From Promethearchaeota archaeon (GTDB taxonomy: Archaea; Asgardarchaeota; Lokiarchaeia; Sigynarchaeales; SOKP01), in the NCBI GenBank assembly GCA_030605085.1, contig JAUWBH010000085.1:1-23933 (forward strand): a stretch of DNA of 23,933 nucleotides. The letters run 5' to 3'. Below are positions 9,322-22,161 of the stretch, one piece after another. The notes under the pieces were generated by a model that saw only the letters and a program-made list of their open reading frames with translations, had not been told where the DNA came from and searched no databases. Numbering within the stretch: the stretch's first letter is position 1; every line of letters starts with the position of its first letter. The translations under genes were made by a program, and so were the position numbers.

Positions 9322-10389
9322 TTAACTGAGATACTTTTTTAATTCTTTTGAAACTTTATCAGATTTTCCATCTTTTATCCAATATCGAATCTTTTTTGAT
9401 CTCAATAAAGCTTGAATTTTATCGTTTAATTCGTTCAATTTTTTCCGATCTTCCTTAGATAATTGAGGGACCTCTTCAATTATTTTTTCCTTTACTTTTT
9501 CGATTTCTTGTTCAATAATAGGAATATCAATTTGCTCTTTTCCTTCAATTAATCTTTTTCTTAAGATTTCTTTTATACTATTAACCCAACCTTTAATCCA
9601 AGGGAAGTGCCCTTGTTTCTTAGGATCTAAAATTTGAATGTGCTTTCGCTCTACGACAATTAAATCATCAGGGCAAGAATTTTCGCAAGCTCCACAATAA
9701 AAGCACTCGTCTTCGTTGCATGCAATCTTTCCGTACTTTTTGACATTTTCTGCGCTTTCTGGAATAAAAAAAGACTCTGTAGGGCAAATATTAACGCACG
9801 CCTTGCACCCTTGGGGATCGCATTTGTGGAGCATATTTTTTTTAATTATAACCTCTCCTTCAATAGGAGAATCGATATAAAAACATTCTTTAGGACATTC
9901 CTTTGAAAGTTTAAAATAATCTTTTATATTGTTTCGATCCCTTACTTTTAAACACAATTGACATATCTCATTATTAGAATCTTCAACGCATTTATCCATA
10001 TCAATTTTATAAAATTTGCCAATAGAGGGGTACTCATCTAACAAAATTTGTTCCTCAGGCGTAATACTCTCTCGGAAGGCGTCGTTCGGGCAAACTATTG
10101 CACATACCATACAATAACAACATTTATCATAATCAATAAGTAATTTAGGATTAGTATCTTCTAAAATCCCTTGGGCGATTTCTGGTATAGGACCAAGTTC
10201 TATCGCATCTACAGGACAAACTAATTTACAAAGACTACACCCAATACATTTCTTAATATCATAGGTAAGCTTTTTATCTACATCTTTAAAATGCCACTTA
10301 AGAATAAGTTTTTCCGGTGAGATTTCTATATTTTTCTCAATTCCTTCATCTTGAATCTCATCGTTTATAGAAGAATTCGAAATGTTAAT
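9322..10389 (-). CDS. fwdF: FwdF-like polyferredoxin; start codon unresolved
   Basis: This frame encodes about 355 residues of multi-cluster [4Fe-4S] ferredoxin resembling FwdF/FmdF, the electron-carrying subunit of formylmethanofuran dehydrogenase. Numbered from codon 10389, cluster motifs are C48-C51-C54-C58 (CIGCSLCKLVCP), C90-C93-C96-C100 (CCYCMVCAIVCP), then CxxCK-type motifs around HKCDPQGCKACVNICP and ECFYCGACENSCP, plus a less regular cysteine group. The block VDAIELGPIPEIA after the first cluster is characteristic. The C-terminal ~100 residues are charged and helical. The first in-frame ATG (10110) falls inside the second cluster and would destroy two clusters, so it cannot be the true start. 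Upstream only ATT or ATA codons are in frame before a TGA at 10392-10390. Rare start, frameshift or sequence error are all possible. Confidence 0.65.
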   Translation of the reverse strand: MNISNSSINDEIQDEGIEKNIEISPEKLILKWHFKDVDKKLTYDIKKCIGCSLCKLVCPVDAIELGPIPEIAQGILEDTNPKLLIDYDKCCYCMVCAIVCPNDAFRESITPEEQILLDEYPSIGKFYKIDMDKCVEDSNNEICQLCLKVRDRNNIKDYFKLSKECPKECFYIDSPIEGEVIIKKNMLHKCDPQGCKACVNICPTESFFIPESAENVKKYGKIACNEDECFYCGACENSCPDDLIVVERKHIQILDPKKQGHFPWIKGWVNSIKEILRKRLIEGKEQIDIPIIEQEIEKVKEKIIEEVPQLSKEDRKKLNELNDKIQALLRSKKIRYWIKDGKSDKVSKELKKYLS

Positions 10390-10571
10390 TCAACCACTCT
10401 TAGTTTTTTGATTCTATGCATCTAAAAATATCTTAAATAATTAATTTTAACTCTTTTTATTGATAAATAAAATTAAAATTATTGATCTTAAATTATTAAT
10501 CTAGATAGTTGAGAAATCTTTAATCAATCGAATTACCCAAGGATTGATATTTGGTGTTGTTTTTGTATTAA

Positions 10572-20869: not shown

Positions 20870-20876
20870 GGAGGTG
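20870..20876 (+). promoter_or_regulatory. Strong ribosome binding site of argG
   Basis: GGAGGTG is complementary to the 3' end of archaeal 16S rRNA. It lies 10 nt before TTG 20887, which is in frame with argG. An ATG at 20879 is only 2 nt away and opens a 6-codon dead-end frame (MEYWNN, stop), so the site supports TTG as the start. Confidence 0.65.
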
Positions 20877-20886
20877 TTATGGAATA

Positions 20887-22161
20887 TTGGAACAATTAGG
20901 ACCGAAAAAAGAAAAGTATGATAAGATTTTACTGATGTATTCAGGAGGATTAGAATACATACAATTGATGTATGTATGATCAAACACTTCCTGTATGATA
21001 AAATGGCTTCAAGAAACTTATAGTGCTAAAATATATGCATTTACAGCGGATTTGGGACAAGAATTTGCCGATCCTACGAGGCTTAAAGAAATAGAAGAAA
21101 AAGCGTATAAGTTGGGTGCCGTGAAGCATTTTACTGTCGATTGTAAAGAAAAATTTGTGAAAGACTATGTTTTCCCTACAATTAAAGCCAACGGTTTATA
21201 TCAAGGGATATATCCTTTAAGTACAGCAGTAGGAAGACCCTTAATTGCAATTGAAGCAATTAAAATTGCTAAAAAAGAAGGAATTTCTGTGATAGCCCAT
21301 GGATGTACTGGGAAAGGGAACGATCAAATTAGAATTAATATAACAGCAAACGCTTATGCTCCTGAAATCGAAGTATTACAACCCTTAATTGAGTGGAATA
21401 TGGGTAGAGATGAGGAAGTCAAATATGCAGAGAGACATGGAATTCCAGTCGATAGATATAAGAAATATAGTATAGATGAGAATCTTTTTGGAAGGAGTGC
21501 AGAATGCGACATATTGGAACGCCCCGAAATCGAACCTCCTGAAGACAGTAGAGATTGGACGGTTTCCCCACAAGAAGCTCCTGATGAACATGAATATATA
21601 ACCATTAACTTTGAAGAAGGAATTCCAGTGGGATTGAACGGGGAAAAAATGAATTCAGTTGAATTGATACGATCATTACATAATGTTGGATGTAAACATG
21701 GAGTAGGGAGAATAGAACACATGGAAGATCGAGCAATTGGATTAAAATCAAGGGAGACTTATGAAGTCCCAGCAGCTTTAATATTAATTAAAGCGCATAA
21801 GGATCTTGAAAAATATGTTTGTACTAAACATGAAAATTCGTTCAAAACGCTAGTTGACCAAAGATGGACTGAATTAGCATATGAGGGGCTTTGGGTTGAT
21901 CCGTTAAAAGATGCCTTAGAAGCATTCATAAATGAAGTAAATAAAAAGGTAACTGGCAGTGTTAAAGTAAAATTATTTAAAGGAAGCGCAGAAGTGGTCG
22001 CAAGAGAATCTCCTTACGGGTTATATGATTTAAATTTAGCAACATACGATACTGAAAGCACTTTCAATCAGAGATTAAGTTATGGGTTTATTCCTCTATG
22101 GGGAATGCAAAGTAAAATGGGTTTTTTAATTAAAAAGAAAATTGAAGAAGAAAAAAAATAA
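20887..22161 (+). CDS. argG: Argininosuccinate synthase, interrupted by a 30-nt BHB intron
   Basis: ArgG joins citrulline and aspartate using ATP in arginine synthesis. The continuous 388-codon frame from ATG 20995 begins inside the nucleotide-binding domain and lacks the P-loop. The missing part lies upstream in the same frame from TTG 20887 (EQLGPKKEKYDKILLMYSGG), but it is interrupted by 30 nt containing TGA (20977-20979). Removing 20954-20983 yields YSGGLDTSCMIKWLQ, the invariant pyrophosphatase loop, with D23 restored as a split GAC codon, and a 414-residue protein of normal ArgG length. Further family blocks are FTADLGQE, STAVGRPLIA, HGCTGKGNDQIR and ENLFGRSAE. Unspliced message would give only a 30-residue peptide. 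dapA follows 95 bp downstream. Confidence 0.93.
20954..20983 (+). other. 30-nt bulge-helix-bulge pre-mRNA intron in argG
   Basis: The insertion folds with its exons into a canonical BHB. The central helix is GATT (20948-20951) with GATC (20978-20981), three Watson-Crick pairs and one G-U. The 5' bulge is AG|A (20952-20954) and the 3' bulge is AA|A (20982-20984), each cut after the second base. The intron hairpin is ATACATACA (20955-20963) with TGTATGTAT (20969-20977), 9 perfect pairs around ATTGA. The outer helix is G20947-C20985, a mismatch, then three pairs (20943-20945 with 20987-20989). Cleavage at the standard positions gives exactly the in-frame GAC codon. The geometry equals that of the two tRNA-Pro introns. 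Confidence 0.88.

Follow-up and report, generated by a model that had tools for sequence, protein, structure and literature searches.

A probable bulge-helix-bulge pre-mRNA intron in the ATP-binding loop of argG in Lokiarchaeia, with counterparts in two further metabolic genes

In the genome of a Promethearchaeota archaeon, argG, the gene for argininosuccinate synthase, is interrupted by a 30-nt insert that is very probably a bulge-helix-bulge (BHB) pre-mRNA intron—one that would be cut in both of its 3-nt bulges by EndA, the endonuclease that splices tRNAs, and joined by the ligase RtcB, with the SGGLDTS motif of the ATP-binding loop restored in the process. The gene lies in what we call the window, the whole 23,933-nt stretch of DNA that was analysed. 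Such inserts also interrupt argG at the same site in related genomes, as well as two other metabolic genes, so that several mRNAs are likely spliced in these archaea. For the Lokiarchaeia more widely, we consider it quite likely that several mRNAs are spliced per genome, with short, ORF-less BHB introns placed in catalytic or cofactor loops of metabolic genes and repeatedly gained and lost at the same sites. The cutting and joining of the argG RNA, the enzymes involved and the timing of these steps we infer from DNA sequence.

The continuous argG ORF of the window (20995-22161, translation table 11) encodes 388 aa and starts past the ATP-binding loop. Upstream of it, the same frame reads LEQLGPKKEKYDKILLMYSGGL, then EYIQLMYV, and then TGA, amounting to 30 residues from the TTG at 20887. 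The insert splits the codons of SGGLDTS, and beyond it, with the Asp codon rejoined, the protein continues as DTSCMIKWL; a cut between the second and third base of each bulge restores SGGLDTSC and an argG frame of 414 aa. The joined protein matched Pfam family PF00764 from profile position 1 with 203 bits, as against a match only from position 16 and 173.9 bits for the continuous ORF, and it also matched PF20979. Several of these points had been made in the initial annotation from the letters of the DNA—an ORF without its P-loop, P-loop codons upstream in frame and split by 30 nt with a TGA, an exact frame after cutting at the standard bulge positions, an unspliced reading of 30 residues—and each was borne out. 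An unspliced mRNA would yield only the 30-residue peptide or, from an internal ATG, the 388-aa protein without the ATP loop, so that active argininosuccinate synthase would depend on splicing; as the initial annotation suggested, the intron might conceivably act as a switch. Among the best 80 matches listed, the closest argG sequences came from three Candidatus Lokiarchaeota genomes (78-84% identity), and the 11 argG-like loci on viral contigs reached at most 40% identity. Near the gene start (20870-20899) lies an SD-like GGAGG; the ATG after it, at 20879, is out of frame and opens a 6-codon ORF that overlaps the likely TTG start. In two relatives, L103 and L104, the ATG at this place is in frame.

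Table 1. Features of argG and its predicted intron in the window
Feature	Position	Strand	Basis or remark
argG, whole (exon 1, intron, exon 2)	20887..22161	+	414 aa without intron; TTG start inferred; PF00764, PF20979
Exon 1, ending ...SGGL and base 1 of the Asp codon	20887..20953	+	Start codon from comparison with relatives
Outer helix, 5' side	20943..20947	+	Partner strand 20985-20989, with a G.U pair and an A.A mismatch
Central helix, 5' strand GATT	20948..20951	+	BHB geometry, covariation
5' bulge AGA, with predicted cleavage after 20953	20952..20954	+	BHB geometry
Intron, 30 nt (predicted)	20954..20983	+	Canonical BHB cut; site shared by 7 of 45 loci in relatives
Inner helix (within intron), 5' strand of 9 nt	20955..20963	+	Both bases changed in 4 of the 9 pairs across seven sequences
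Inner helix loop, 5 nt	20964-20968	+	BHB geometry
Inner helix (within intron), 3' strand of 9 nt	20969..20977	+	BHB geometry, covariation
In-frame TGA within intron	20977..20979	+	Read from sequence
Central helix, 3' strand GATC	20978..20981	+	BHB geometry, covariation
3' bulge AAA, with predicted cleavage after 20983	20982..20984	+	BHB geometry
Exon 2 (remaining Asp codon bases, TSC..., stop)	20984..22161	+	Reading frame

The canonical BHB proposed for this site, with its GATT/GATC central helix, AGA and AAA bulges and 9-bp hairpin, is present in all its elements, with the qualifications that the outer helix holds an A.A mismatch and that the optimal fold of the free RNA is a different one. 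The outer helix also has a competing register, in which 20942-20947 pair with 20988-20993. When the window insert was shuffled with its dinucleotides kept, a BHB at least as good arose at the site in 3 of 20,000 trials, and for each of the seven 30-nt argG inserts known from the window and its relatives (see below) the figure lay between 0 and 3 of 20,000. In its lowest-energy fold, the isolated window RNA keeps the hairpin and pairs CAGGAGG with exon-2 bases, and so does not form a strict BHB. Across the seven 30-nt cases, again as isolated RNA, the strict BHB lay 7.6-17.0 kcal/mol above the optimum; a relaxed BHB with a 6-nt 3' bulge came to within 2.7 kcal/mol in five of the seven and stood 8.7-9.4 kcal/mol above it in the other two (L117 and L109). 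RNAalifold, run unaided, retained the hairpin and favoured a different outer pairing. For the one 32-nt insert (L105), the lowest-energy fold is itself a BHB, in which the outer helix has 4 bp and the bulges measure 2 nt on the 5' side and 3 nt on the 3' side. Binding by EndA may select the BHB over the fold of the free RNA. A self-splicing group I or group II intron is ruled out, since 30 nt is too short for a catalytic core and a search of the window against Rfam returned no family at the gathering score.

Comparison with relatives had been proposed as a check in the initial annotation. Among 196 genomes close to G001, which contains L001, an argG match was present in 46, one each, and 45 of these loci were readable; that of G012, a 37-residue fragment, was left out. 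An insert stands at exactly the window's site in 7 of the 45, and the remaining 38 have a continuous SGGLDTS. Six of the inserts are 30 nt long (L102, L103, L104, L109, L112, L117); the seventh, of 32 nt (L105, the same gene as L001), has another sequence and breaks the frame, yet cutting restores the same residues. In all eight carriers, the window included, the canonical cut yields SGGLDTSC. Pairing is complete among the seven 30-nt inserts (119 of 119 pair cells standard, window included) and falls to 21-58% when the stem partners are slid against one another. Four stem pairs are changed on both sides, with a covariation score reached by none of 500 shuffles; the count of further pair types in the stems was not above shuffles (221 of 500 reached the same). 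The covarying stems include G.U pairs, which speak for RNA.

These comparisons also bear on whether the insert is an artefact. The window stands as one sequence with no reads behind it, as would suit an assembly error, variation between strains or excision of the insert from the DNA. The eight carriers, however, share one site with six or more different insert sequences in independent genomes, one of them on a 381,755-base contig (L109), and the G.U pairs in the stems again point to RNA. We accordingly leave this explanation next to no probability, and assembly error, which the initial annotation had named as a possible objection, is very unlikely.

That the gene is a decaying one—the insert a lesion, and argininosuccinate synthase lost in the carriers—would fit the fact that the DNA as read encodes no active enzyme. 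Against this, exon 1 (18 codons) had a pN/pS of 0.16 in the eight carriers vs 0.25 in eight chosen intron-free genes, and the first 120 codons of exon 2 gave 0.14 vs 0.16; exon 1 is under purifying selection in the carriers. Reading frames are intact on both sides of the insert in 8 of 8 carriers, and the stems covary, all of which makes decay most unlikely. Nor was a second intact argG, the other objection raised at the outset, found above the cut-off in the seven carrier relatives: each genome has one PF00764 match at that level, which is the interrupted gene, and further matches in G007, G021 and G022 fall below it (20.6-25.6 bits). An argG BHB intron whose removal an active enzyme requires, as the initial annotation had it, is therefore supported by one splice position in eight carriers, covarying stems, and a single argG above the cut-off together with EndA in seven genomes.

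Protein databases appear to hold further carriers. We built a quick tree of 146 rows, comprising the window, 26 of the 45 argG loci and 119 proteins drawn from the best 120 of 7,999 scored (P0069 was left unclassified). Of the 119 classified entries, 25 start at or near the first Met past the splice site. A clipped start is a fair proxy for the insert, because entries identical to carriers read from DNA were clipped in three of three cases (P0045, P0072, P0111) and those identical to non-carriers read from DNA were full-length in 10 of 10, although contig ends could explain a few clipped entries. With these 25 and the eight carriers established by DNA, the tree has 33 carriers, and the carrier label changes 19 times, at least 12 of them forced by starred branches, in a count that takes gain and loss together; the DNA-read rows alone need six changes. 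Elsewhere in the window, a polyferredoxin ORF (9322-10110) was tried as another clipped gene and rejected, its frame continuing upstream without a gap. Within 9322-10400 (minus strand), this frame passes through more cysteine motifs 5' of its first ATG.

We scanned stretches of one carrier genome, G021, about 1.2 Mb in total, for further genes with the architecture seen in argG, requiring a stop or frame break, and obtained two. The first, with Pfam matches to Glycos_transf_3 and Glycos_trans_3N, is presumably AMP phosphorylase, as judged from its motif; an insert of 29-31 nt lies between DKHS-T and GG in 8 of 30 loci and is absent from 22, these 30 leaving out G045 and G047, with equally short open frames. 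Among the six inserts of 30 nt, pairing holds in 97.4% of 78 cells and both partners have changed in five pairs; the motif is a relaxed form of the BHB, since its outer helix is almost absent. The second gene, which we take from its motifs to encode the beta subunit of pyruvate or 2-oxoacid:ferredoxin oxidoreductase (PFOR beta; a weak TPP_enzyme_C match of 22.9 bits), carries an insert in 3 of 30 loci. All three inserts lie in the loop NTGIQES, at two positions separated by 6 nt, one used by L281 and L306 and the other by L280. Both sets of inserts sit in active-site loops. Introns in all three genes occur in G007 and G021. Other genomes have one or another: G002 and G015, for example, have one in AMP phosphorylase and none in argG, and G003 has one in PFOR beta and none in argG.

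The scan supplies candidates, and the claim is carried by homology, shared sites and covariation, because its raw counts were no better than those with wrong bulge sizes: 31 canonical ORF fusions vs 25, 31, 33 and 33, and, in another control, 412 vs 388, 465 and 428. Restricting to coding-like flanks (score >0.1) left 11 vs 8, 18 and 9, and an inner helix of at least 7.5 in addition left 4 vs 2, 8 and 1. With flanks >0.1, an inner helix of at least 8.5 and a length of 20-45, thresholds chosen once the three genes were known, three canonical cases remained (argG, AMP phosphorylase and PFOR beta) vs 0, 0 and 0. At a flank score >0.2 the result was 0 vs 0, 2 and 0, and a first coding model returned 2 vs 2, 3 and 3 and lost all three known cases. 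The final 20 stretches scanned gave no additional gene. A polymerase DP2 candidate (L181, minus strand) was rejected on reading by eye, as its cysteine-rich coding stretch continues in another frame, and a sulfatase candidate because its Pfam match starts downstream of the joint; the remaining candidates were dropped, most by eye only.

Two side observations concern the architecture of these genes. PFOR beta appears to be circularly permuted in these genomes (L263/L264, G021:C6 about 79300-80420; L281-L309), the C-terminal half (NEAFMNTG...GRFRHLF) preceding the half with GHGLCPGCG...GDGSTYDIGFQ, and a similar stretch recurs at both ends, as a tandem duplication would leave; in G002 (C59, C60) the region is split into pieces, one of which has an internal TAG, and this may reflect another intron, a duplicated copy or a break between contigs. 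Open frames of AMP phosphorylase are 419-431 aa long in G010:C46, G018:C143, G024:C8 and G028:C57, compared with the usual ~515, and may have a different start, be interrupted elsewhere or represent a shorter form of the protein.

Taken over the three genes, the canonical bulge cut restores the frame and the conserved residues in 19 of 19 introns (eight in argG, eight in AMP phosphorylase, three in PFOR beta), borders in relatives having been fixed from exon sequences first and compared with the geometry afterwards. All are 29-32 nt long and without an ORF, and all 19 have an in-frame stop, a count that is biased for the scan-found genes because the scan demanded a stop or frame break. The central helix is complete in 18 of the 19 and incomplete in L281; the inner helix is imperfect beside the bulge in L105 and L306 and has one mismatch in L231 and L250, and the outer helix is imperfect in argG.

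A coding gap with a hairpin and a stop codon is also what phage T4 gene 60 presents, where the ribosome hops over a gap with a hairpin and a stop codon after the take-off site. Translational bypassing of this kind, with no RNA removed, would accommodate the hairpin and the stop past the take-off site here, but the landing codon equals the take-off codon in 1 of 19 inserts (a matched codon is missing in 18), and the conserved junction residue would be kept on landing in only 3 of 19, being wrong in 16. It would moreover leave unexplained the central helix and the bulge geometry at the residue-restoring cut, found in 18 of 19. We regard bypassing as extremely improbable, and return to splicing of the RNA by protein enzymes.

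Matches to the enzymes that such splicing would use occur in the carriers. Matches to EndA (PF01974) number at least two in each of the seven carrier genomes and at least one in all 10 genomes examined. They fall into two paralogs, told apart by a histidine that we take to belong to the catalytic residues of EndA: paralog A has it in 7 of 7 sequences read (six from carriers), and it is missing from all eight sequences of paralog B (six from carriers). The best solved-chain matches of paralog A are 3p1z_B and 3ajv_B, presumably the heteromeric EndA of Aeropyrum pernix, and those of paralog B are 5x89_A and 1a79_A. In G021, introns of 18-41 nt occur in 8 of 18 tRNA calls (15 loci). As an observation apart, G022 carries a dense array of ~30 tRNA genes in 3 kb (G022:C22:30303-33334; L201, L203, L206, L208, L210), with no comparable array among the G021 matches; dense tRNA gene arrays are known from some viruses and mobile elements.

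For the joining step, RtcB was matched in six of the seven carriers—whole in G001, G007, G008 and G021, in two contig pieces in G027 and as a 44-position fragment in G032—and in one of three non-carriers examined; the draft genome of carrier G022 gave no match. EndA cutting followed by joining through another ligase, for example an ATP-dependent RNA ligase, would be in keeping with the gap in G022 and the fragment in G032, and archaeal enzymes of this type exist, according to the part of one report available to us (PMC9014305). Set against this, the RtcB family is fully spanned in four of seven carriers and present in the two pieces of G027, and its absence is weak evidence in draft genomes of uncertain completeness, so that another ligase seems unlikely and RtcB remains the better candidate.

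The nearest known counterpart is the cbf5 pre-mRNA intron of Crenarchaeota, described in the portion of the source available as a BHB intron of 16-44 bp without an ORF that breaks the codon of a catalytic residue, its splicing being supported by cDNA and tied to a hetero-oligomeric EndA (PMC2738675). Features of that account that recur here are a short, ORF-less BHB in a protein-coding gene, the cut between the second and third bulge residue, the broken catalytic codon and a patchy distribution among relatives (PMC2738675). The two EndA paralogs of the carriers, one without the catalytic histidine, resemble the heteromeric enzyme in this respect and may assemble likewise. What differs is the phylum and the genes, here three metabolic genes in Lokiarchaea, with all three interrupted in two genomes, and also the kind of support, cDNA for cbf5 and DNA sequence for the Lokiarchaea introns. 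The initial annotation had spoken of a new class of archaeal mRNA intron, which is too strong, because the cbf5 intron is of the same kind and, in the text available, likewise breaks a catalytic codon (PMC2738675); the part that stands is the new lineage and the involvement of several metabolic genes. In Haloferax, the mRNA of HVO_1309 has a BHB intron processed by EndA, similar in type but located in the 5' UTR, whereas a coding active-site loop is interrupted here; according to the available part of that paper, from 2020, cbf5 was the one other BHB mRNA intron reported in archaea (PMC7714728). Asgard tRNA introns were described as abundant in Atabeyarchaeia and Freyarchaeia in 2024, and the portion of the report available names no mRNA intron (PMC11291895); such archaeal tRNA introns are alike in the BHB principle and in size (18-41 nt in G021) and differ in lying in tRNA genes (PMC11291895, available part). 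No report of mRNA introns in Asgard archaea, in argG or in AMP phosphorylase was found among the matches listed, in a mainly open-access literature without bioRxiv preprints. The mechanism, then, is known from cbf5, and what is new is the Asgard lineage and the presence of several interrupted metabolic genes per genome.

If this reading is true, mRNA splicing would be part of everyday metabolism in some Asgard archaea, acting on argG, AMP phosphorylase and a PFOR subunit, and gene callers would be clipping intron-bearing genes, as in the 25 clipped argG entries among 119. In the archaea nearest to eukaryotes, protein enzymes would then splice the pre-mRNAs of several genes, and EndA would gate the supply of active enzyme. 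The gain, loss and tolerance of introns in protein-coding genes without a spliceosome become testable in Lokiarchaea, as does, in the carriers, the idea that splicing tunes enzyme supply.
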